From Psychroflexus gondwanensis ACAM 44 (GTDB lineage Bacteria > Bacteroidota > Bacteroidia > Flavobacteriales > Flavobacteriaceae): a stretch of DNA of 64,000 nucleotides. The position numbers were made by a program, and so were the translations under genes. The stretch spans positions 1-64,000 of the forward strand of contig NZ_APLF01000002.1 in the NCBI RefSeq assembly GCF_000355905.1, given 5' to 3'. The notes under the pieces are model-generated. The model was not told where the DNA came from and made no database searches. It was given only the letters and a program-made list of their open reading frames with translations. Shown piece after piece: positions 12,873 to 59,551 of this stretch (positions are counted from its first letter, which is position 1; each line of letters starts with the position of its first letter).

Positions 12873-14609
12873 ATGAATCTATATCTCAAACCCCTAAGTT
12901 TCCTAACAACTCTACTGATCTTAATAACTTACCATACTTATGGCCAAGGCGATAGGGAAGCTGACGGGCTTAATTTTGCGTCAAGATCTGAAGTTATAGG
13001 ACAATATGGGATGGTAGCGACAAGTCATCCATTAGCCACTCAAATTGGATTGGATATTTTAAAGCAAGGTGGCAACGCCATAGATGCGGCGATAGCTGCA
13101 AATGCAGCTACAGGCCTTATGGAACCAACAGGGAATGGCATTGGAGGTGATTTATTTGCCATTGTCTGGCATGAGAAAACTCAAAAGCTCTATGCTATAA
13201 ACGCCAGTGGGCGTTCACCTTTAGGCTTGTCTTATGATGACCTACTAAAAGAATTAGATGAAATCGACGAGGAAAGTATTCCTCCTTATCATTTACTTTC
13301 TGTCTCCGTGCCAGGCGCCGTAGATGGCTGGTTTGAGTTGCATAAAAAATTCGGCTCTCTATCGATGGAAGAAATTCTTAAATCTCCAATTCACTATGCT
13401 GAAAATGGATTTCCTGTAACAGAAGCTATTTCTGCTGGATGGAGGCGTAGTGTTCCCTTTTTAAAAACTCAGCCAGGAGCTTTTGAAAGCACATTCACTA
13501 TTGACGGTCGTGGCCCTCATAAAGGTGAAATCTTTAAGAATCCCGATCTTGGAAACACGCTAAGAGTGTTGGCGAAAAAGGGTAGAGATGCTTTTTATAA
13601 AGGCGAGATCACTAAAAAGATAGATAAATGGATGGTAAAAAATAAGGGTTATCTACGCTATACAGATTTTGAAAAGCACCGTTCTGAATGGGTGGAACCC
13701 GTTACGACTAACTATAGAGGCTATGACGTTTATCAAGTTGGGGGGAACGTCCAGGGAACAGCCGTTTTACAAATGCTGAATATTTTGGAAGGCTACGATT
13801 TGAAGTCTATGGGGTATGGTACACTAGAAACCTTACATGCTTTTATAGAAACCAAAAAGCTAGTTTACGAAGACAGAGCCAAGCATTACTCAGATCCTGA
13901 TTTTCAAGAGGTGCCTTATGATGTTTTGCTCTCAAAAGAATATGCTGCTAAACGCGGAAAGCTGATTGGTGAAACTGCGATGAAAGACGTTAGCACTGGT
14001 GTTGAGGTTATTGAAAATGGAGACACTGTGTATTTGACCACCGCTGATAGTGAAGGCAATATGGTGTCTTTGATACAAAGTAATTTCAGAGGGATGGGAA
14101 CTGGTTTTGTAGTACCTGGACTTGGATTTAGCTTTCAAAATCGAGGTGAATTGTTTTCTACCGACTCCAAGCACCCTAATGTATATGCCCCAGGAAAGCG
14201 CCCTTTTCACACGATTATACCAGGGTTTGTGATGAAAGACGGCAAGCCATTTTTTAGCTTTGGAAACATGGGAGGGGCTTATCAACCCATAGGACATGTG
14301 AGTATTTTAACCAATATCATCGATTTTGGAATGAATGTACAAGAGGCTGGTGACGCTGCACGATGGGATCATTCAGGATCATCGGAACCTACAGGGAAAC
14401 TCACGGACAAATTGAGTACCACTGGTCAAGTGAACTTAGAGTCTGGAATTCCTTACGAAGTTGTGCGCCAACTTAGAGGAAAGGGACACAAAGTCGAAGT
14501 GGGGAATAGCTTTTTTGGGAGGTATCAAGGTATTATGCGCGATTATGAAAACGGAGTGTATTTAGGTGCTTCAGAATCTAGAGTGGATGGTCAAGCAGCT
14601 GGTTACTAG
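12873..14609 (+). CDS. ggt: Gamma-glutamyltransferase (gamma-glutamyltranspeptidase)
   Basis: A 578-residue Ntn-hydrolase of the GGT family that transfers or hydrolyses gamma-glutamyl groups of glutathione and related peptides. The signal peptide MNLYLKPLSFLTTLLILITYHTYGQ predicts a periplasmic location. Family marks are ILKQGGNAIDAAIAANAATG near 65, EPTGNGIGGDLFAIV near 87, the autoprocessing site at GDTVYLTTADSEGNMVS with Thr385 as expected nucleophile, and GNMGGAYQPIGHV in the small subunit. The Thr is kept but the usual T-T-H is T-V-Y, as in some divergent GGT-like enzymes, so activity on glutathione is not certain. A fragment of a diverged second copy lies at 16013. Confidence 0.87.
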   Translation: MNLYLKPLSFLTTLLILITYHTYGQGDREADGLNFASRSEVIGQYGMVATSHPLATQIGLDILKQGGNAIDAAIAANAATGLMEPTGNGIGGDLFAIVWHEKTQKLYAINASGRSPLGLSYDDLLKELDEIDEESIPPYHLLSVSVPGAVDGWFELHKKFGSLSMEEILKSPIHYAENGFPVTEAISAGWRRSVPFLKTQPGAFESTFTIDGRGPHKGEIFKNPDLGNTLRVLAKKGRDAFYKGEITKKIDKWMVKNKGYLRYTDFEKHRSEWVEPVTTNYRGYDVYQVGGNVQGTAVLQMLNILEGYDLKSMGYGTLETLHAFIETKKLVYEDRAKHYSDPDFQEVPYDVLLSKEYAAKRGKLIGETAMKDVSTGVEVIENGDTVYLTTADSEGNMVSLIQSNFRGMGTGFVVPGLGFSFQNRGELFSTDSKHPNVYAPGKRPFHTIIPGFVMKDGKPFFSFGNMGGAYQPIGHVSILTNIIDFGMNVQEAGDAARWDHSGSSEPTGKLTDKLSTTGQVNLESGIPYEVVRQLRGKGHKVEVGNSFFGRYQGIMRDYENGVYLGASESRVDGQAAGY

Positions 14610-15494: not shown

Positions 15495-16325
15495 TGTTTT
15501 TTTTTATAATTTATTGAAAAAAAGGAGATAGAGCATGGTGCAATTCCTTAAACATTCGTTAAACCATGATCGTTATTTATTATTCCTGTGCCATCATAAG
15601 CTTCTAACGAGAAACAGCCATCGTGGCCAGTAGGAAGCATTCTAGAAATAAGCATAATCAATTAATGCCGAAGGAAAACGGAGGTCCTTCCATCTGAAAA
15701 TCCAGACACTTATATATGTTACTAAATTTCTCATTCTCAGCATCGCGCTGTCAAACATGACATTTAGAATTATTAATTTCAGAAATCGCCCATTGATGTC
15801 CATTATTGCCTAAAATGAACCGTTTTTAGTTTCATTTAAGCAGTTTGATGAACCAATGATAAATGTTGCGATAAGAATAAACTTGTAAATGGTATAAATA
15901 TTTAGGTCAATAATCAACAAAAGAAAATTAAAGTCGATTTATTTCAAACTTGATAAAGAGGAAGAGTGGGGTCTTTCTGCTAGGAGTTCGTGGGAAATTT
16001 TAGAGATAACACGCAATGAAAGATGTTAGTACTGGTGTTGAGGTCGTTGAAAATGGAGACACCGTGTACTTGACCACTGCTTATAGTGAAGGCAATTTAA
16101 GTTTACGTTATAGATAATAGTCCCTTCCTAATATTTTTAAGTCTTAAAGTTTGGTGCTGGGTTTTGATAGATTTTAATAAAGGGGTCTGAGGTCGATGTA
16201 ACATGTTTTTCTTTCTACTTGAAGGGAAAAAGATCTACTCATTATAAAATGGAAGTCATATTTATAACTTTTTCGTAGATTAGTAAAACTCTAGATAAGT
16301 ATTATAAATTTTAAAAGCATAGCCT
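15495..16325. other. Gene-poor spacer holding a gamma-glutamyltranspeptidase scrap
   Basis: About 830 bases without an intact gene. The only recognisable content is the ggt-like fragment at 16013-16096. The rest is AT-rich and shows no protein-like frame, tRNA or strong hairpin. Confidence 0.5.
16013..16096 (+). pseudogene. Fragment of a second gamma-glutamyltransferase gene
   Basis: These 84 bases match 13977-14060 of ggt with nine differences (about 89% identity), in the same reading sense, and cover the catalytic Thr region. Seven of the nine changes are silent; the others give Ile to Val and Asp to Tyr. This pattern means the source gene evolved under selection as a protein before it was lost, so it is a relic of a true paralogue, not a recent copying error. 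Sequence on both sides is unrelated to ggt. Confidence 0.8.
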
Positions 16326-19492: not shown

Positions 19493-19873
19493 TTGAAAGA
19501 ACTTCAAAATATAAAACCCTCGAGATCTCTATTCCCAATAATTGGGTTAGCGTTCTTGTTGTTGCTTTCTCCTTGCAAGGTTAGAAACTTTATTCAAGCA
19601 GAGCTTGGCGTTCCTCAAACTGAAGTCGCCAACCGAAGTCAAACCTCACTAAGCAGCTCAAATTGCAGCATCTCTGAGGTCGTTACAACTCCCATCTCCA
19701 AAATAGACTCTTCGACTCAGGAGGCTCCTGTATTCGCCGCGAAACACTTCGATTTAGATATTCATCGCATTGCGGTATCCAAAGCGGCTGGACATTTTCA
19801 TAAAGAAAGAAACCTCTCGGTTTCTTCAATTCCCCTTTATATTTTATACAAAAACTTTAAGGCGTTTCTATAA
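19493..19873 (+). CDS. Small membrane-anchored protein usually found ahead of metal efflux genes
   Basis: A 126-residue protein starting at TTG 19493, with one hydrophobic segment (SLFPIIGLAFLLLLSPCKVRNFIQ) followed by a Ser/Thr-rich stretch with one Cys and a C-terminal LYILYKNFKAFL. The segment SPCKVRNFIQAELGVPQTEV is, from memory, shared by small proteins preceding CusA-type heavy-metal efflux genes in flavobacteria; that is recollection, not a search. The efflux genes are absent here. TAAGTTTG at 19480-19487 matches the Bacteroidetes -7 box and lies about six bases before the TTG, which would make the message nearly leaderless. Confidence 0.55.
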   Translation: MKELQNIKPSRSLFPIIGLAFLLLLSPCKVRNFIQAELGVPQTEVANRSQTSLSSSNCSISEVVTTPISKIDSSTQEAPVFAAKHFDLDIHRIAVSKAAGHFHKERNLSVSSIPLYILYKNFKAFL

Positions 19874-19988
19874 ATAGCTTCAGTTATTAGTTAATGTTAT
19901 CAGTTTTTAAGAACTGATATTGTATTAATGAATAGAAACTTAAAATGACATTTCAAAAAAAAACCTTGAAGTTAGCTACAAATCTGTA

Positions 19989-20348
19989 GTGATACTTCGC
20001 ATCATGCTCAGTCTAATTTTTATAGTAGCGAGCGCAAGCCATTTTTTTAATATCGAAAAAACCGTAAGCAGAATAGAAAATGCAAATATGGGTTTTATTG
20101 GAAATAGTTTGGGATCCCCCGAAACAGCTGTAATTCTATCAGGAATTGTAATGTTCGTCGCAGGGGTTTCACTTCTTATTGGCTTTAAAACTCGAATTGC
20201 TGCTCTGGTATTACTTGCGGTATTAATTCCAATTACTTTGACCATTCAAGTTGGTCAAATGGCAACTTTGGGTCCGCTTTTTAAGAATATAGCCCTACTT
20301 GGCGGACTTCTTTTTTTTAGTATTAATTCAAAAATTCAAAAACAATGA
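19989..20348 (+). CDS. DoxX family membrane protein
   Basis: A four-helix membrane protein of about 119 residues (IMLSLIFIVASASHFFNIEKTV, AVILSGIVMFVAGVSLLIGF, IAALVLLAVLIPITLTI, ALLGGLLFFSIN). The start is unclear: GTG 19989 or ATG 20004 work, but an ATG at 19945 begins a natural-looking N-terminus that is out of frame by one base across the A9 run at 19955-19963. The stop overlaps the next ATG (ATGA). First gene of a DoxX-DsrE-DoxDA operon, so a role in membrane sulfur or quinone redox is likely. Confidence 0.72.
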   Translation: MILRIMLSLIFIVASASHFFNIEKTVSRIENANMGFIGNSLGSPETAVILSGIVMFVAGVSLLIGFKTRIAALVLLAVLIPITLTIQVGQMATLGPLFKNIALLGGLLFFSINSKIQKQ

Positions 20349-20767
20349 AAAATTCAATTATAGTGACCACGACCTTGTTCCTTTTATTATTTGGAACAAT
20401 CCAATTACAAGCTCAAGATTTCAATCCAAAAAAGAATAATTATGTAGTGCTTTCTAAAAACATTCAACAGCTTCAACCGGTTATACTCACTGCTAAAGGA
20501 TTAGCAATGGAAGACGGGAAAAAATACGGCGATTTTTATATGATTATTTGTGGTAAAACCGTAGATGATATTCCAAACAACACTGATTTTATTCAACTTC
20601 TGAAAAAAGCCAAAGCACAAAACCTAAAGGTTTTTGTTTGTGGTATTTCTCTAAATAAATTCAACATAAGTCCAGACCAAATGCCAGACAATCTGGAAAT
20701 CACTAAAAATGGTATTCTGTATGGATTTCAGCTTACCAAAAAGGGATTTATTACGCTAACTATTTAA
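20345..20767 (+). CDS. DsrE-like family protein, exported
   Basis: A 140-residue protein with a signal peptide (SIIVTTTLFLLLFGTIQLQAQ) and a DsrE/F-like domain: VVLSKNIQQLQPVILTAKGLA, then YGDFYMIICGKTVDDI, and LKVFVCGISLNKFNIS with Cys residues near 77 and 100. DsrE/TusD-type proteins carry persulfide sulfur on such a Cys. A periplasmic DsrE between two DoxX/DoxD proteins suggests that it hands thiol sulfur to or from the membrane partner; this is inference from context. Confidence 0.75.
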   Translation: MKNSIIVTTTLFLLLFGTIQLQAQDFNPKKNNYVVLSKNIQQLQPVILTAKGLAMEDGKKYGDFYMIICGKTVDDIPNNTDFIQLLKKAKAQNLKVFVCGISLNKFNISPDQMPDNLEITKNGILYGFQLTKKGFITLTI

Positions 20768-20777
20768 TGATCAAGAA

Positions 20778-21794
20778 ATGAAAAATATCAGTATAAAGAA
20801 CGATGCAGGCCTTTTAGCGCTTGCACTAAGATTAGTAGTGGGTTGGACTTACTTTTCAGCCTTATGGAGGAGAACCGCCTTAGCCAATAAACTCGACCCC
20901 GAACTTCCTGGATATATTGGCGAAAAGTTCAATCACTTTTTACCCAATGCCCTCGGCATTAAACCTATTATTCAATATTTAGTAGAAAACCCAGATATAC
21001 TTTGGATAAACATGGTGATTTTTACCATAGTGGAAGGTATTGTGGGTTTATTAATCATGTTTGGGTTTTTTACTCGACTTATGAGTATAGGGGTCTTTGG
21101 CTTGGCTATGGGTATTCTTCTTGGCTCAGGTTGGATAGGAACTACCTGTCTGGATGAATGGCAAATAGGGGTATTGGGAATTGCCACGGGCTTTGTTTTA
21201 TTCCTAACCGGAAGTGGTAAATATTCCTTGGATCATTACCTGATGAAAAAGGATATTGCTTTCACCAAAACCAAATGGTTTGCGTGGATAGGTTCAGGGG
21301 TATTGCCTATTAAAGAAAGTATATTTCCAAAAGTAGTGCTTGTCGGCTCTTTATTAATTTTTGGAATGACCTTAATGACCAATCAAGTATTTCATGGTGG
21401 ATTATGGGGAACGCTACATAATAAATCTGTAAAACCAAAACTTGAAATAACAGAGGCTAACATTAGCAACAGTACGCTTTCGTTCGATGTCTTTAGAGTT
21501 GAAGGTGTAGATGTGTATGGCTCTTGGGTTATCCGTATCGAGTTATTTGATGAAGACAACAACAAGGTTCTTGATTATTCTCAGGAAGACTTGGCGTCTC
21601 TAAAGGAAGCTAGTATTGCAAACTATTATGTTGCTGAGATAAAACCAGGCAAACACAGTTTAATTGTGCCCTTGGGCGCAAAAGCAAAAATGAATTTAAA
21701 GCATAACAGCTTAGCCGATTTGCCTTCGGGAATTTACACTGTAAAAATGACAGACATTAGCGGAGCTTTTTGGGAACATGAGGTTAAAAATTAA
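20778..21794 (+). CDS. Thiosulfate:quinone oxidoreductase-like DoxDA fusion
   Basis: A 338-residue protein joining a DoxD-like membrane domain (about residues 8-150, helices such as ALALRLVVGWTYFSALWRR and MVIFTIVEGIVGLLIMFGFF) to a C-terminal extracytoplasmic domain (about 200-338, beginning VFHGGLWGTLHNKSVKP) that corresponds to DoxA. In Acidianus, DoxD and DoxA form thiosulfate:quinone oxidoreductase, which makes tetrathionate and passes electrons to quinone. It starts ten bases after the DsrE-like gene. Substrate in this organism is inferred. A terminator follows at 21822. Confidence 0.78.
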   Translation: MKNISIKNDAGLLALALRLVVGWTYFSALWRRTALANKLDPELPGYIGEKFNHFLPNALGIKPIIQYLVENPDILWINMVIFTIVEGIVGLLIMFGFFTRLMSIGVFGLAMGILLGSGWIGTTCLDEWQIGVLGIATGFVLFLTGSGKYSLDHYLMKKDIAFTKTKWFAWIGSGVLPIKESIFPKVVLVGSLLIFGMTLMTNQVFHGGLWGTLHNKSVKPKLEITEANISNSTLSFDVFRVEGVDVYGSWVIRIELFDEDNNKVLDYSQEDLASLKEASIANYYVAEIKPGKHSLIVPLGAKAKMNLKHNSLADLPSGIYTVKMTDISGAFWEHEVKN

Positions 21795-21864
21795 GCTTCT
21801 CCCCAACTGAATAGAATTGATAAAAAGCGGCTTTAGTAGTGATCTAAAGCCGCTTTTTTATGCT
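21763..21864. repeat. Duplicated segment A, copy 1 (gene end plus terminator)
   Basis: These 102 bases, covering the last codons of the DoxDA gene and its terminator, are repeated at 27345-27446 with only a few mismatches. The copy carries no function for a gene at the second site apart from the hairpin, so copy 1 is the original. Confidence 0.85.
21822..21859 (+). terminator. Terminator of the DoxX-DsrE-DoxDA operon
   Basis: An inverted repeat AAAAAGCGGCTTTA / TAAAGCCGCTTTTT with a short loop and a T run. It also works on the minus strand and so may serve the 21900 gene. Confidence 0.75.
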
Positions 21865-21899
21865 TAATACTAAGTATAGGCCAGGTTATATATCTATTT

Positions 21900-22454
21900 T
21901 TATGGTATGACATAGTATACGATATCGGAAATTTTGTTGTTGCTATCCAAGCTTATAGAAATTGGACTGCAATATCCATCTTCTCTTATGATAGACACAA
22001 ATTTATGCTTGTTTTTCCCTGTATCTATAACATATTCTATTGAATTTAGTTTTGAAATTGGATCGCCTATTTTAAGGTAAACCCCATTAATGTTTATATC
22101 GTTAGTTTCTAAACGTCCAATTTCAAACTTCTGATTATTGGAATCGTCTGAAAATGCTATCATAAGTCCTGAATTGTAATTAAAGACTCTCTGTGGTTCA
22201 CCAATTTCAAAGCCATAAATTTCAATAGTCACTGCATTTGGTTTTTTGGCTTTATTATCTTTCCAGAGCGAAGCTTTGTTTAGAACCAAATCGTTCAAAA
22301 TCTTAATATCTGCATTAGATTCTTTTATATCTTTAAAGTAAGTATCTCCGAACTTTATTTGATCGTATTCATCGTTATTCAAAACTGTATACCCTGACTG
22401 AGAATAGCCGATAATACAGCTTAATAGTAAAAAAATAACAAACATTTTTTTCAT
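21900..22454 (-). CDS. Exported protein of unknown function
   Basis: About 184 residues. The ATG at 22454 gives MKKMFVIFLLLSCIIGYSQS, a signal peptide ending around GYSQ; the frame opens nine bases earlier (MNI). The mature part reads YDQIKFGDTYFKDIKE and GVYLKIGDPISKLNSIEYVID with a C-terminal beta-rich end (NNKISDIVYYVIP). The last part resembles small flavobacterial periplasmic proteins of the SmpA/OmlA-like type (GDPISKL..), but I cannot name a family. It lies between repeated segments A1 and B1 and has no counterpart between A2 and B2, so it was gained or lost with the rearrangement. Confidence 0.65.
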   Translation of the reverse strand: MKKMFVIFLLLSCIIGYSQSGYTVLNNDEYDQIKFGDTYFKDIKESNADIKILNDLVLNKASLWKDNKAKKPNAVTIEIYGFEIGEPQRVFNYNSGLMIAFSDDSNNQKFEIGRLETNDININGVYLKIGDPISKLNSIEYVIDTGKNKHKFVSIIREDGYCSPISISLDSNNKISDIVYYVIP

Positions 22455-22475
22455 GATATTCAATTCAAATTAATA

Positions 22476-22623
22476 GGTTGATAATTCTAGATCTGACTTC
22501 AAACTTAACGATAATTACAAAACTCAATAATTCTAAACTATTGATTTTGAGTTTAAAATAAGTTTTAAAACAACAAAACCCCAATATACACTTGGTATAT
22601 GATGGTTTATAGAGGAGTCGGTG
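22476..22623. repeat. Duplicated segment B, copy 1 (truncated ssrA end)
   Basis: This stretch repeats 27568-27728, including the AATTCTAAACTAT element, the hairpin AATATACACTTGGTATAT and the last bases of ssrA (GGAGTCGG). Identity is lower than for segment A, about 80% with small gaps. It is a dead copy of the tmRNA 3' end and terminator. Confidence 0.8.
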
Positions 22624-22868
22624 ACAACGATTATATTTTTAACTTTCTAGTGTCAGTAGGGTTTTCAAAAGACACTGTTTTTAGGGGTCTTCTAAGCCTT
22701 TTTGTATGAAAACTTAACATTAACTACAATATATGTCATATTACGATGCACTCTAAATGATTTGGTCAAAGAATAGAAAACACAAGCAATTCACAGTTTA
22801 TTAAAGCATATTTTTAATGTTAAAACTTTTAAGACGATAAAAAATCCCTTTGATTAGAGTTTTTAAAA

Positions 22869-22900
22869 TATAGATAACACAACTTATTGTGTTATCTATA
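22869..22900. repeat. 14-bp hairpin with GATAACACA core
   Basis: Perfect arms at 22869-22882 and 22887-22900 with a four-base loop. The core GATAACACA and its complement equal those of the 6766-6809 hairpin. It stands 18 bases before a pseudogene start, and a TTGGCAAG-type sequence follows (22903) whose inverse CTTGCCAA lies just after that gene (24061). Together they look like the boundaries of a gene-cassette-like unit. Confidence 0.55.
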
Positions 22901-22918
22901 AGGTTGGCAAGAATATCT

Positions 22919-24052
22919 ATGAAAATGAGAACTATAATTTTAATTTTTTTAATAAGTCTTACTAAACTTTCATTTGCTCAAATTGAGAGTAATACTTACC
23001 AATTGAATACATTAGAAAACCTATTGACAGATGACGTGAAGAAAATTATTTCATATAACATTGAGAATAAAAGTGTTGTATTTTTTAGGAGAATCAGCAC
23101 ATCATATGGGTTCTGATTTTTTAGCTAAAACTGAGTTTGTAAAATATCTGGTTAATGAAAAAGGCTACAAAGATATCGTTTTTGAAAGCGATTTTTTTGG
23201 ATTGTACTTGACCATAAAAAATATAACATTTTTCCTCATTGGACACGATCTGAACAATGTCAAGATTTATTCAGATTTTTAGAGGTACATGATGTTACAC
23301 TATGGGGACTCGATAATTATACAAATTCATATTATACCTACCATAATTTTGCACAAAAGCTAAATGATTATTTAAAGGGAAAGAATATTAATGTAGATGA
23401 TAGATTCATTAAATTAACCGATAAATCAATTAAAACGGCTGGTGATGAATTAAATAAAGATGAAGTCAAATTTCTGTTAGGTACCATTGATGTTTTATTA
23501 TCAAATGAAAAAATTGACCCACTTTGGCACTAATTTTTAGAAAGCTTTCAAAGTGCGGTAGAAATTTATACTATTCATAGCATTAGAAAAGAAGGTATTC
23601 CGATAAGAGATAAACAAATGGCTAAAAATCTTGATTTTCTTGTAAAGAAATTTCCTGAAAAGAAATTTTTAGTCTGGGTAGCGAATGCGCATATGTCAAA
23701 AGTTGAAAGTGAATTTATGGAAGGACAGACAATGGGATATGATTTTGTAAAATTAAATCCTGATATTTCTTATCATCTTGCCTTTACCTATATTCACATG
23801 CCGTGGATTAAAAAGAGAAAAATAGAGAAAGCTCAAATGAATAAATATAACCTGCTCCATTATTTACCAGATACAACAGGAAATTATTTTATTGATTCCA
23901 AAGCATTAATAAAGGCATATCCAAAATTTTCAAATAAAGATTATGAAAGCTTTTTCGGATTAAATAGTAATGAAGCAAATTGGTTTGAACAATTTGATGC
24001 TTTGATCTTTATTGGAAAAGGTATAAGATCAAATTTAATTGAGTACGAGTAA
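22919..24052 (+). pseudogene. Erythromycin-esterase-family gene, broken by two frameshifts and a stop
   Basis: Reading across frames gives a signal peptide (MKMRTIILIFLISLTKLSFAQ), then GESAHHMGSDFLAKTEFVKYLVNEKGYKDIVFESDFFG, the GESxHG..E and ...FE signatures of Ere-type hydrolases, then FRFLEVHDVTLWGLDNY, and KKFLVWVANAHMSK (the conserved ANAH His). The first frameshift lies at a T6 run (23081-23086, five Ts expected), the second near 23213, and TAA at 23531 interrupts the third part. The gene is dead. The family hydrolyses macrolide lactones in a few cases, but many members act on other esters. Confidence 0.75.
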
Positions 24053-24941
24053 GGGATACTCTTGCCAACATCAGTTAAGCTCAATCAGGTGGTCCCTGGT
24101 TCGAGTCAAAGTGGGACCAAATGCATAATCCGTAAAACACAACATATAAGCGTTTTATGGATTTTTTATTATGGCTTGTGCCGACGATTGTACCGCACTA
24201 AATTTCGTTTCTATTGATTATGACTAATTGTTGCTAATCTACAAAGGAAAAATTCTAGCTTTTTTAGATCTATAAACTATGCCTGAAGGATATTATTTTT
24301 GCATTGACCGATTCTGATGTGGAATTAATGTCCCTGCTTATAAAATATTTTAGGATTGATCTATAACGGAGTGATATTAGTGACGATGGTATTGGGCGCT
24401 CTAAAATCACTATTTTCCAAATCTTTGTAACAATGTGCCAGTTTTTTATAGTTAACGGCATAGAAGTACCCAATAGTATGGCAATCGAGAGTCGTAGTTC
24501 CTACTAAACTAGTTTAACAAAGAAGCGAGCTCGGTGGTCATTCAGGTTCCCTTTGCTGCTAAATTCCGATCTCTTTGGATAACTTTTTTAGTTATTTTGT
24601 CTATCCAACTAAACCATTTTACGCGAAGATATATTTTGTATCCGTGTAGTGGAAGCTTGAAAAGTGACTTCTTTGGTAAAACTTTTAGTTATTTATACTC
24701 GCAAGGTTTCTTCTTTTGGCTTGATATTCCGTTCTTCTAAATAAAAATAAAGAACCGTTTCACTTTATTTCTTATTTTTACTAAATCAAAATGATCCAGT
24801 AAAAATTGTTTCAACAAAAGCATTATTAAATCTAGATCTTACTCAATTTCAAAATAAATATCTTGATTTTCTTGGGATGACTTCTGCTTATTGCTTATAT
24901 TGTAATTGTCCATATATAATTCGCGAATACATAAATATGAG
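24053..24941. other. Relic-rich spacer
   Basis: Nearly 900 bases without an intact gene. It begins with a tRNA-3'-end-like sequence (24091-24119) followed by an imperfect hairpin ATCCGTAAAAC / GTTTTATGGAT and a T run (24127-24171), which looks like a tRNA terminator. Further fragments near 24270-24480 are too broken to name. Confidence 0.45.
24091..24119 (+). other. tRNA 3'-end-like remnant (possible attachment-site scrap)
   Basis: GGTCCCTGGTTCGAGTC followed by ...GTGGGACCA looks like a T arm, acceptor 3' strand and CCA of a tRNA. The T stem pairs poorly (CCTGG against CAAAG) and no anticodon arm precedes it, so it is not a functional tRNA. It fits a decayed integration-site duplicate. Call is tentative. 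Confidence 0.4.
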
Positions 24942-27041
24942 ATGATAAAATCTAGACTTTTTCTCCTTTTGACTCTGATGCTTATTACTTTTGCTACTTC
25001 TATAGCTCAGGTTGAATCTGCCGGTGAAATGAAAGTTCAATTGGAACTACTCAATCCTTCCTCCGAAATTAATAATGGAGTGGCAAAGGTAGTAGTTGAG
25101 GGTGGCCAGGCTCCCTATCAATATAAATGGAGTAATGTAAACACGCCTTTAATTGCGGCAGAATCGGTTGGTTTGATTGAGGGGATGGAACATTCCGTAC
25201 TTGTAAGCGATGCCAGCGGAAATAAGGTTTCGAAGACATTTACCATTCCTACAAAATCGATAACCGAAATTTTCAACAGCAAAGTACAGCCGGCGGTGGA
25301 TGTGCTGGGAGCCGTTCTATTTTGGGATGCTTTTGCTACCCTTGGAATATATGATCCTGTAGTTTACAGTTCTTATAAAAATATACCCCTTCCGCGAATC
25401 GAAGTATCTGCCGATGAGGAATACCTCGTAAAAAAATGGTTGGCTCCAGAGGGAAGCCAGGTCAAAAAAGGTAACGAGATTGCAGTGCTGGAAGGCAATA
25501 ATAATACAGAATATTCTGTTTATGCTCCGGCCGAAGGAACTTTAGAACACGATACCAAAGAAGGATCTTCGATTTCCAGATTGCCCGAAACAGGTTCTTT
25601 TAATGCTCCGCTCCTTGGGGTAATCCAATTTCAAGATCCCCAACCTCTTTTACATCCCAACGGAGATATAAAAACCAACAACCTTCCTTTCATTGTTATC
25701 TGGCTTATTTTGGGAAGTATTTTCTTTACCATACGTTTAAAGTTCGTAAACATTCGAGGGTTTCGGCATTCTTTAGATTTGGCAAGGGGAAAGTATGACG
25801 ATCCCGATGCTCCCGGCACGATAACGCATTTTCAAGCTATGGCCACCGCGGTATCGGCCACAGTGGGCCTGGGAAATATTGCAGGGGTAGCGGTGGCGAT
25901 TTCCCTTGGAGGTGCGGGTGCAACTTTCTGGATGTTTCTCGCAGGTTTTTTCGGCATGTCTTTAAAGTTTGCAGAATGTACTTTGGGGGTGAAATATCGC
26001 TTTATTGATGACGACGGTCGCATATTTGGAGGACCTATGAATTATTTGCGCTATGGTCTGGAAAAGCGAAACCTTGTGAATTTGGGGAAATTCCTGGCAA
26101 TACTCTTTTCGGTTCTTGGAGTAGGAGCTTCATTTGGCGGTGGTAATATGTTGCAGTCAAATCAGGCTTTTAAAATAGTATCAGAGCAAATTCCCTTTTT
26201 TCAAGGTCAGGGATTCTGGTTCGGAATTGGTTTCGCCATTTTGGTAGGCGTAGTGATTATTGGTGGCATTAAAAGTATCGCCCAAGTGACTGCGAAAGTA
26301 GTTCCAGGTATGGCCATTTTATACGTGTTGGGTTGTTTAGTAGTGATAGGTTATCATTTCGAATATATTGGAGGTGCTTTTTTAGCCATTTACGATGGTG
26401 CTTTTTCTGCAGAAGCTTTGAAAGGTGGATTTATTGGCGTTTTGATCATAGGCTTGCAACGCGCCGCTTTTTCTAGTGAAGCAGGAGTAGGATCGGCCGC
26501 AATTGCTCACAGTGCCGCCAAAACCAATCACCCTATAGCCGATGGCTTCACTTCTTTGGTTGAACCTTTTATCGATACGATGCTGGTTTGTACCATGACT
26601 GCCCTGGTTTTGATTTTTACTGGAAAGCATGAAACCAGTAGCGGACTGGGTGGCGTAGAACTTACCGCTGATGCCTTTGGAAGTGTAGTTTCCTGGTTTC
26701 CTTCAGTTTTGGCGGTCGCGGTATTTTTATTTGCTTTTTCTACTACCGTTTCCTGGTCATATTACGGAATGCGCTCTTGGACCTTTCTCTTTGGAAGAAG
26801 TAAAAAAGTGGAACTGACCTTTAAAATAATGTATTTAGGTTTTGTAGTATTAGGTGCTTCGGTAAGTTTAGGAGCTGTTTTAAGCTTCGCCGATATGATG
26901 ATTCTAGCCATGTCCTTTCCCAATATCATAGGATTGTATATTATGGCTCCTGAAATCAACGCCGACATGAAAATTTACTGGCAGAAATTAAAAGATGGAA
27001 AATTGCATATCAATTCAAAATTCGTCAAAGCTGAAGATTAA
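24942..27041 (+). CDS. Alanine/glycine:cation symporter (AGCS) with large N-terminal exported extension
   Basis: A roughly 699-residue membrane protein. The C-terminal 460 residues are an AGCS sodium/alanine symporter: MATAVSATVGLGNIAGVAVAISLGGAGATFWM, GGPMNYLRYGL, RAAFSSEAGVGSAAIAHSAAKT, DTMLVCTMTALVL. Before it come a signal peptide (MIKSRLFLLLTLMLITFATSIAQ), a beta-sandwich domain like SprB/PKD repeats (GGQAPYQYKWSNVN), a possible membrane segment, and a biotinyl/lipoyl-like fold (LVKKWLAPEGSQVKKGNEIAVLEG, then YAPAEGTL). The frame opens at TTG 24906; ATG 24942 is chosen because it starts the signal peptide. Codon use is more GC-rich than the neighbours, suggesting acquisition. Confidence 0.85.
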   Translation: MIKSRLFLLLTLMLITFATSIAQVESAGEMKVQLELLNPSSEINNGVAKVVVEGGQAPYQYKWSNVNTPLIAAESVGLIEGMEHSVLVSDASGNKVSKTFTIPTKSITEIFNSKVQPAVDVLGAVLFWDAFATLGIYDPVVYSSYKNIPLPRIEVSADEEYLVKKWLAPEGSQVKKGNEIAVLEGNNNTEYSVYAPAEGTLEHDTKEGSSISRLPETGSFNAPLLGVIQFQDPQPLLHPNGDIKTNNLPFIVIWLILGSIFFTIRLKFVNIRGFRHSLDLARGKYDDPDAPGTITHFQAMATAVSATVGLGNIAGVAVAISLGGAGATFWMFLAGFFGMSLKFAECTLGVKYRFIDDDGRIFGGPMNYLRYGLEKRNLVNLGKFLAILFSVLGVGASFGGGNMLQSNQAFKIVSEQIPFFQGQGFWFGIGFAILVGVVIIGGIKSIAQVTAKVVPGMAILYVLGCLVVIGYHFEYIGGAFLAIYDGAFSAEALKGGFIGVLIIGLQRAAFSSEAGVGSAAIAHSAAKTNHPIADGFTSLVEPFIDTMLVCTMTALVLIFTGKHETSSGLGGVELTADAFGSVVSWFPSVLAVAVFLFAFSTTVSWSYYGMRSWTFLFGRSKKVELTFKIMYLGFVVLGASVSLGAVLSFADMMILAMSFPNIIGLYIMAPEINADMKIYWQKLKDGKLHINSKFVKAED

Positions 27042-27097
27042 TTTATTATAAAATACTCAAGTTTCACACCCACTGTTTACAGGCTTTGGGCGATAAT

Positions 27098-27142
27098 AAA
27101 TAGCATGAAAACCAAGGTAAACCCCCGGTTTTCATGCTATTT
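27098..27142 (+). terminator. Terminator of the AGCS gene
   Basis: A 16-bp stem (AAATAGCATGAAAACC and its complement) with a 13-base loop follows the symporter stop by 57 bases. Confidence 0.75.
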
Positions 27143-27143
27143 A

Positions 27144-27344
27144 GGTTACCGCACATAAAGTACAAAACTTGCTACAACACGAAGAGATTGCAAAAACTCG
27201 AGAATTAAAAGAAAAGTTTAATAAGGTTTGGGTGAGTTCAGAATATTTACAATCACATCTGAATATTTTAGGTTTTGATAAAATAAAAAGCCGGTTCAGT
27301 TGGTGCAAGCAGGCAGGTTCTAGCAAATCAAAAAATCAACTGGA
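27144..27344 (+). pseudogene. Start-less fragment of an unknown protein
   Basis: A plus-strand frame reads QNLLQHEEIAKTRELKEKFN, VWVSSEYLQSHLNILGFDKI and SRFSWCKQAGSSKSKNQ, then runs into repeat A2. It has a protein-like pattern (helix-forming, basic) but no start after the terminator and no recognised family. Probably the scar of a gene cut by the rearrangement. Confidence 0.3.
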
Positions 27345-27446
27345 GAGCTTTTTGGGAACATGAGGTTAAAAATTAAGCTTCTCCCAAACTAAATAGAATT
27401 GATAAAAAGCGGCTTTAGTAGTGATATAAAGCCGCTTTTTTATGCT
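27345..27446. repeat. Duplicated segment A, copy 2
   Basis: A near-identical copy of 21763-21864, with the last DoxDA codons and the terminator hairpin (27404-27441), here detached from any gene. The copy marks one edge of the inserted or duplicated region. Confidence 0.85.
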
Positions 27447-27567
27447 GGATGTTAACTAAAGACAGGGCTTTAAAATCCATACTTTATTCAGAACATTTTT
27501 TATAATAATTATCACTCTAAAAAAACCAAAATGTAGAGTATTTAATTGACGATATTCTGAATTAATG

Positions 27568-27728
27568 GGTTGATAATTCTAGATCTGACCTTAAACTTGA
27601 CGATACTCACAAAACTCAATAATTCTAAACTATTTAGTTTTGAGTTTATTTATTGTTTTAAAAAAAGTTTTAAAACAATAAAACCCTCATATACACTAGG
27701 TATATGAGGGTTTATAGTGGAGTCGGGG
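27568..27728. repeat. Duplicated segment B, copy 2 (real ssrA end)
   Basis: The original of repeat B: it includes the ssrA terminator and the 3' end of the gene. Compare 22476-22623. Confidence 0.8.
27681..27713 (-). terminator. Terminator of ssrA
   Basis: A perfect 14-bp stem, AAACCCTCATATAC and its complement, just downstream of the tmRNA 3' end on the minus strand. Confidence 0.8.
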
Positions 27729-28116
27729 AGACTCGAACTCCCGTCCAAACAAGCAATTCAATAGTCTTCTACACGCTTAGTTTTCTCTTGGATTTTCGAG
27801 ACAAGACTGGCTGAAAACCACCTACCTTGTCCTTATCCTCAATTGAGTTTCACCAAAACATCAAGACCCTGTTTTAGCTATATTTACTTTACCGGTGCCT
27901 CTGGTGCAAACGCCGCAAATCAAGGCTTTTGCGAGACATCTTAGCCCGTTACCTTGTAACGGTTAAGCATATCCTACTGTGATTCGGATTATGCAGCCAA
28001 GGCGTAGTTATCTTCGCCGTTTAAAAAAGTGTGAAACATGAGATTTACGAGCTGTATCCCAGCGCTCGGCGTGCTTACCATCCAATTGGCCTTGCTGTCA
28101 AAACCAAATCGACCCC
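27718..28116 (-). ncRNA. ssrA: Transfer-messenger RNA (tmRNA)
   Basis: The minus strand begins GGGGTCGATTTGGTTTTGAC and ends GAGTCTCCCCGACTCCA. GGGGTCG pairs with CGACTCC to form the acceptor stem, and GGGAGTTCGAGTCTCCC is the T arm. The tag frame at 28021-27989 encodes NGEDNYALAA followed by TAA, a typical Bacteroidetes degradation tag. Length without CCA is 399 bases, as expected. It rescues stalled ribosomes with SmpB. A degenerate copy of its 3' end lies at 22476-22623. Confidence 0.95.
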
Positions 28117-28180: not shown

Positions 28181-28296
28181 TGGGCGTTTCCCTTTGGTCG
28201 ACTCTCGTCTTCCAAAGCGCCGGGCTATCCGCTATATCCTCATTCCGATAAATATCGGGAATGAGGGATGCCGCTTCTATCCCTTACGCGGGTCAC
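28181..28296 (-). ncRNA. Conserved Bacteroidetes structured element
   Basis: On the minus strand, GTGACCCGCGTAAGGGATAG, AAGCGGCATCC, a long hairpin (CCTCATTCCCGAT... with its complement at 28238-28266), then GGATATAGCGGATAGCCCGG and AAACGCCC. I recall this layout (GTGACCC...AGCGG-ATCC-hairpin-GGAT-AGCGG-AGCCCG) as a widespread dispersed element in Flavobacteria; its function is unknown and the recollection is not a database result. It lies directly upstream of ssrA on the same strand. Confidence 0.5.
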
Positions 28297-28390
28297 TTCA
28301 ATATTAAAAGGAAGTTACCTTTCCAACTAGAACTGCAAAAGTAGATATAAATACTATCTTTGAAGCAAAAATCATCTTAAAATAAAGCCT

Positions 28391-59194: not shown

Positions 59195-59317
59195 CACTAC
59201 AAATTTTGACAAAAGTATGATTAATTATTTCAAATTTTAAACTCCTCAAATCAAGCTTATTAAAATTAAATTCAGAAAAAGCTATCATTCTTTAAGAAAT
59301 GTTTAATTTTGCAATGC

Positions 59318-59502
59318 ATTTTGGTTCTCAAAGGTGTATTTCAACTTTTGAAGATTAAAAGGGAATTTCGTTAAAATCGGAAGCTGTTCCCGCAACTGTG
59401 CGCTTAGTACGCTTTGTGCGTATGCTTTACTTCAAAACTTCGTAACCACTGTCTGTTAAGATGGGAAGGTTAAGTAAAGACGCAAGCCAGGAGACCTGCC
59501 TC
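59318..59502 (+). promoter_or_regulatory. Cobalamin (adenosylcobalamin) riboswitch
   Basis: The leader of the BtuB-like gene contains the parts of a cobalamin riboswitch in order: AAAGGTG near 59330, AAAAGGGAA, GGAAGCTGTTCCCGCAACTGTG (59381-59403, split here for length: AGCTGTTCCCGC and AACTGTG), the P-stem segments GTAACCACTGTCTG, and the B12 box AGCCAGGAGACCTGCC at 59485-59500. It overlaps the first possible ATG (59504). Binding of the B12 form is expected to shut down expression of the receptor operon. Confidence 0.92.
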
Positions 59503-59551
59503 AATGTATAATTTAAAAACGAAGACTTTCGGGATAAAAGTCGAGTGGTGT

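Follow-up and report, generated by a model that had tools for sequence, protein, structure and literature searches.

We interpret the DNA beside ssrA, the transfer-messenger RNA (tmRNA) gene, of Psychroflexus gondwanensis ACAM 44 as what erosion has left of an integrative element, which a tyrosine integrase would have inserted at the 3' end of ssrA. We give this reading, which is drawn from sequence comparison, a probability of about 0.86. "The window" is the whole 64,000-nucleotide (nt) stretch analyzed (contig NZ_APLF01000002.1, positions 1 to 64,000); G numbers denote comparison genomes, with G000 the window's own, and L numbers denote fetched loci. The argument starts from two pairs of direct repeats, A and B, and from the following features:

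20778..21794, + strand: doxDA fusion gene (Pfam DoxD + DoxA), last gene of its operon, its final 32 bp inside A1
21763..21890, + strand: repeat A copy 1 (A1), dox tail and terminator
22468..22611: repeat B copy 1 (B1), chromosomal flank and displaced, decayed ssrA terminator (hairpin 22577-22607)
22612..22624, - strand: displaced ssrA 3'-end fragment, 13 nt with 2 mismatches, putative distal attachment junction
22623..22689, + strand: distal arm of the island, with homologues in ssrA islands of other genomes
27345..27472, + strand: repeat A copy 2 (A2), 32-bp doxDA tail and terminator, gene absent
27560..27716: repeat B copy 2 (B2), flank and intact ssrA terminator of the genus-native type (hairpin 27682-27712)
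27717..28116, - strand: ssrA (tmRNA), intact, tag GEDNYALAA (ARAGORN, Rfam RF00023)

Repeat Pairs and the Displaced ssrA End

The original prediction had segments A and B occurring twice in the same order, and this is confirmed by self-BLAST: A at 21763-21864 aligns with 27345-27446 (99/102 identical, 97%; E 3e-44) and B at 22468-22624 with 27560-27729 (84% over 170 columns; E 5e-48), the ends first given for B being slightly short. Both pairs are far beyond chance, with 3/102 mismatches between the A copies and 14/146 between the B copies (Fisher p 0.04). When 21763-22623 was searched against its own genome (3.31 Mb; E 0.001), a single 33-bp match was found beyond the repeats. Repeat A comprises the final 32 bp of doxDA, from an operon conserved across the genus, and the terminator; its second copy stands without the remainder of the gene. 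B2 holds the last 13 nt of ssrA, the ssrA terminator, and about 120 bp of flank further out, and B1 holds the counterparts of these items 5.1 kb from the intact gene. B1 had been said to end in the last bases of ssrA, and indeed the 13 nt are shared with the ssrA end at 2 mismatches. The B2 terminator folds at -19.4 kcal/mol (z -5.4) and that of B1 at -10.7 kcal/mol (z -0.9); a decayed hairpin in B1 and an intact one in B2 are expected if ssrA is served by copy 2 alone.

The DNA just inside B1 is homologous to that inside the displaced ssrA ends of L101 (Flavivirga aquimarina), G273, G386, and G458, and less closely to that of G008 and G005. A profile built from these six arms, with the window left out, matched the 64-kb window at 22623-22689 (E 2.1e-8; next-best match 1.2), and the window arm scored 41 against the L101 arm, the highest of 1000 shuffles reaching 29. 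No ssrA is present on the 8 and 34 kb read for G386 and G458, and an island is not confirmed for these two. In a search of 397 genomes, 45 others gave weaker matches (E 4e-5 to 0.01), which are short and resemble chance matches. The arm includes a sub-motif of about 25 bp that is repeated on the ssrA side of complete islands, as expected for putative integrase arm sites, and the arm would thus be a candidate for integrase binding. Since the arm is shared with ssrA islands and the site is uninterrupted in three other species of the genus (see below), B1 is taken, on sequence grounds, as a site-specific integration junction.

The ssrA Site across the Genus

An empty-site version had been proposed as a check, and uninterrupted sites were found in three other species: in G016, G001, and G004 the 578-aa gene, the arginine-type metabolic block, DUF84, ssrA, and the AlaDh gene follow in succession, and only G001 and G004 add to this order, by one or two small genes each. 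No displaced ssrA end was found within the 12-13 kb read in these three genomes. The site is filled elsewhere. In G013 a displaced terminator and ssrA end (a 78-bp perfect repeat) come after a DUF84-type gene, and ssrA itself stands 17.7 kb further on. The genus-type terminator of G021 is displaced by 6 kb, ssrA has another terminator, and the displaced end has an integrase-like gene (Phage_int_SAM_5; PHROG integrase) beginning about 180 bp from it. In G008 and G005 an integrase is found close to ssrA, at about 260 bp, and the displaced ends are about 136 and 104 kb off. A displaced end is thus present in 5/18 genus genomes with the ssrA flank read, window included; for 12 of the 13 without one, 11.6-13.3 kb beside ssrA were scanned with the exact motif, and farther or diverged ends would be missed. 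Sister genomes with the same order and no sign of insertion, which would have spoken against an insertion, were not seen among the other species compared.

A trace of the ssrA site was also sought beside the relocated arginine-type block of the window's own genome (contig C22) and was abandoned, as the terminator motif was not found in that stretch. Ten proteins encoded near ssrA in G013, G008, G021, and G005 were scanned for defence genes, with one generic TPR match.

Complete ssrA Elements in Other Flavobacteriaceae

Integrases with an ssrA target had been suggested as something to look for elsewhere, and a tyrosine integrase does stand beside ssrA in G008, G005, G273, and L101, the set defined here as G008-type ssrA elements. 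Their arm-to-ssrA intervals are about 136, 104, and 40 kb for the three genomes and 8.5 kb for L101. The G008 integrase (406-aa type) has the domains Arm-DNA-bind_5, SAM_5, and Phage_integrase; that of G005 is 94% identical to it, the domain scan having been run on G008 only. On the ssrA side these elements have a second arm, conserved over about 190 bp and including the element's own terminator. A profile of this arm from six sites retrieves further ssrA sites (best L087, E 1e-36).

The G008 element carries a conjugation-type TraG ATPase. Ten proteins were scanned in the 40-kb interval of G273 (L184-L185), which includes a TonB-receptor/SusD pair, a PL8 lyase, a sulfatase, and a TRAP transporter; by these predicted functions the G273 island carries a polysaccharide-utilization (degradation) locus.

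Eighty named loci with the AlaDh gene were fetched, 72 of them with a tmRNA gene on the stretch; 69 were counted after 8 without tmRNA and 3 with less than 2 kb beside it were left out. Exact ssrA-end fragments of at least 12 nt occur beside ssrA on the same strand in 12/69 and on the opposite strand in 0/69. Half of the 12 are no more than about 160 bp away from ssrA, which leaves no room for cargo, two are at 0.6 and 1.2 kb, and the remaining four (L062, L068, L101, L107) are at 6.7-8.5 kb, all with an integrase match. A G008-type integrase is found beside ssrA in 6/72 loci (L060, L099, L101, L113, L122, and L127, with L099 and L127 partial), and a G021-type integrase near the displaced end in 3/72 (L062, L068, L107).

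Some of these loci show further arrangements. In Wocania arenilitoris (L068, 1055-2688) a G008-type ssrA-side arm stands directly left of a displaced ssrA end, a G021-type integrase comes after that end, and this locus apparently has two tandem ssrA islands that differ in integrase type. In Aquimarina megaterium (L125, 9142-9448) ssrA is adjoined by two additional copies of its terminator plus 12-nt end, 123 bp apart, and five other named loci have an extra ssrA-end copy within about 160 bp of ssrA.

DNA between the Copies

The following genes lie between the two repeat units or within the first:

21900..22463, - strand: gene for a 187-aa protein, no family above cut-off
22919..24022, + strand: erythromycin-esterase-like pseudogene, frame broken (one intact homologue with Pfam PF05139)
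24083..24119, + strand: 3' half of a tRNA gene, CAT anticodon type, beginning directly after the anticodon
24945..27041, + strand: AgcS-type sodium:alanine/amino-acid symporter gene, second paralogue in this genome

The pseudogene and the tRNA scrap reported between the copies are both real. Esterase homologues found at E 1e-20 (49-59% identity) occur in 7/298 other family genomes, and an intact one has PF05139. The tRNA half matches the post-anticodon half of a CAT tRNA at 34/37 bp and is probably a displaced end that stems from an island at a different site. The best relatives of the symporter belong to other genera and are 83% (G158), 83% (G308), and 81% (G039) identical, and in the 24 other genus genomes searched identity is 69% at most. 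The symporter had been called GC-richer, and its GC content (0.41-0.46) does exceed that of most of the region; as a mark of foreign origin GC alone is not decisive, because the AlaDh gene beside ssrA is similar (0.41-0.43). No translated matches for the non-coding parts of the insert (22625-22920, 24120-24930, and 27042-27345) were found in the compared loci, and Rfam families had no match in 22400-24900 with E values up to 1. Elsewhere in the window, a Flavo-1 RNA (Rfam RF01705) lies at 28214-28298, between ssrA and the AlaDh gene, and a cobalamin riboswitch (Rfam RF00174) at 59305-59517.

The dox Tail and the 187-aa Gene

The sister genome closest to the window, G025, has 91-93% DNA identity in the flanks. 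Two dox-tail/A copies flank an M36 peptidase gene in G025, 34-40 kb from ssrA, so A can be duplicated independently of ssrA, and to interpret A as an island end is less convincing. Repeats at unrelated places had been named as evidence against the original prediction, and these two copies are a partial instance. The duplications in the two genomes are not clearly one event, and a common origin was set aside: A1 and A2 are 97% alike, and their likeness to either G025 copy is no more than about 78-82%. Around both dox-tail copies of G025 (L037) there are dispersed repeats, each about 200 bp long, that are in part self-complementary and resemble miniature inverted-repeat transposable elements; one interrupts the second copy. 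Between the dox tails and ssrA, G025 also has type I restriction genes and a cyclase of the cyclic-oligonucleotide-based antiphage signalling system (CBASS) type with a phospholipase effector (L035-L036).

The 187-aa gene had been described as an extra of the first unit. It is probably not an addition, since DNA resembling its 3' tail (80% over 217 bp) follows the second dox-tail copy in G025; at the protein level the match covers 22 aa only (E 0.03). Loss from the second unit is therefore likelier, and in the common ancestor the gene probably adjoined dox. When the 187-aa protein was compared with known families, a single NCBIfam match appeared, below cut-off.

In G016, G024, G008, and G005, 24-52 kb separate doxDA from the 578-aa gene, with doxDA on the far side of that gene as seen from ssrA, and in the window doxDA (in the stretch 19493-21794) lies between the 578-aa gene and ssrA. 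From this comparison the dox stretch 19493-21794 was probably relocated in the window. Downstream of the 578-aa gene of the window (12873-14609), a broken fragment of it is found at 15986-16102; G025 has two such fragments.

Proposed History and Alternatives

In the history that we propose, integration would have split off the chromosomal ssrA end with its terminator (B1) and moved them away, and the element's own copy of the ssrA end would have been placed beside the gene body. Of the element, the distal junction and arm would survive (22612-22689). Its integrase, ssrA-side arm, and remaining parts would have been lost or become unrecognizable, and other DNA (the esterase pseudogene, the tRNA half, and the symporter) would have been gained or kept. 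Finally, a native-type stretch (dox tail, A2, B2) would have come to stand beside ssrA again. The order of these events is our suggestion. A2-B2 may come from recombination with a sister strain, from the distal junction copied during repair, or from a tandem duplication that came earlier and included ssrA. A tentative idea, which we hold to be less likely than not, is that the chromosome's own dox tail-A-B sequence from downstream was written over the ssrA side through sister-strain recombination or repair copying.

Several observations weigh against the remnant reading. Neither integrase type (G008 or G021) has a match in the window insert, and the window's own genome has no close integrase, the best being 26% identical and on another contig. 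The ssrA-side arm is absent at the window ssrA (best window match E 0.31, at 11961-11840), and A2-B2 beside ssrA is unlike the product of simple integration. The window arm is diverged, with only 67 bp scoring, and in the scan of compared loci its score of 41 against L101 was followed by a chance-level 35. The displaced ends of G013 and G021 have no match to the arm profile, which indicates that more than one element kind uses the site. The uninterrupted sites, those of G016, G001, and G004, all belong to other species and have a different left neighborhood. The sister G025 lacks a displaced fragment in about 53 kb beside ssrA (exact motif) and has a dox-tail duplication of its own.

Much of this bears on what kind of object is left. 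The tmRNA gene and a displaced 3' fragment in the same orientation, within 2-200 kb, are present as in an island; an integrase gene between the ends was not found, and the locus is therefore called a relic and not an island. Compared with the G008-type elements, it has the distal arm and lacks both the ssrA-side arm and a 406-aa-type integrase beside ssrA. One element end is kept and the other lost, so the paired A-B repeats are not the two ends of one intact island, and excision or transfer by the relic is not expected. Integration at the tmRNA 3' end, as first suggested, is thus supported by the B1 arm shared with integrase-bearing ssrA islands and by uninterrupted and filled sites in the genus; that integration alone made the paired repeats did not stand, as only a remnant is left and A2-B2 needs a second event, for which tandem duplication is one option.

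Tandem duplication has also been considered as the whole explanation: dox tail-A-B-ssrA would have been duplicated and foreign DNA then taken up between the copies, with no site-specific integration. The identical order of A and B, the genus-native terminator type in both B copies, and the 97% likeness of the A copies would all fit, and the G025 dox tail, duplicated away from ssrA, shows that A can be copied without it, for which reason we raised this explanation and slightly lowered our confidence in the remnant. However, a plain duplication does not create the conserved ssrA-island arm that starts at the B1 fragment, the 187-aa gene is in one unit only, and the divergence of A and B is unequal; we regard it as unlikely. 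A duplication including ssrA that was followed by integration into the first copy is an option that merges with the history preferred here.

We give even less credence to two tandem islands of one family, each with an A-B-att end, that entered ssrA successively with dox and the symporter as cargo. Tandem ssrA islands are described in PMC3146451, the L068 locus resembles two island types in a row, and the dox operon stands elsewhere relative to ssrA in four relatives; but the six modelled islands share a different 190-bp ssrA-side end, dox is an operon present genus-wide, and a query of 27345-28116 against 100 genomes matched A in G000 and G025 only. The part of the window left of dox gave no additional exact match to the displaced ssrA motif, and a diverged one could be missed. 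A first model of ours, with tandem islands sharing a common A-B end, was dropped after the result of the ssrA-side arm profile.

Relation to Known Systems and Significance

Genes for tmRNA are favored island targets (Hudson et al., Islander, PMC4383910). The remnant resembles the islands described there in its intact tmRNA gene and same-orientation 3' fragment, here 5.1 kb apart, and differs in having no integrase between the ends (and so would fail the Islander filter) and no ssrA-side arm. The Dehalococcoides ssrA islands described by McMurdie et al. (PMC3146451) are bounded by a short direct repeat of the ssrA end and are often in tandem, and 15/31 are without an integration module. The window shares with them the position at the ssrA 3' end and the direct repeat of that end; they use serine recombinases, whereas the flavobacterial relatives here carry a tyrosine integrase. 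For the 10K genomic island of Riemerella anatipestifer (PMC6764341), integration and excision were shown experimentally. It is a Flavobacteriales integrase island at an RNA-gene end with direct repeats, and its target is an Arg-tRNA gene and that of the window ssrA. Among the matches listed, the G008 integrase aligns over near full length with tyrosine integrases in plasmid records of Bacteroides, Parabacteroides, and Phocaeicola and in phage records, at 35-42% identity; no record reaches 60%.

In the text available of PMC5771137 and PMC9366087, tmRNA is named only as an annotated gene. No description of ssrA islands in Flavobacteriaceae was found in the literature by title and abstract among the matches listed, with subscription journals mostly outside this search. 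Integration at tmRNA genes is well known, and a set of ssrA-specific tyrosine-integrase elements across several Flavobacteriaceae genera may be new. The set has recognizable arms on both sides, and complete members carry a polysaccharide-degradation locus (G273) or a TraG ATPase (G008). Used as probes, the two arms could map such islands and their relics precisely. If the ssrA side of the window was indeed overwritten, the overwriting would have removed the arm and the integrase and fixed the remainder, a route by which a host would tame an ssrA island and keep its symporter cargo.

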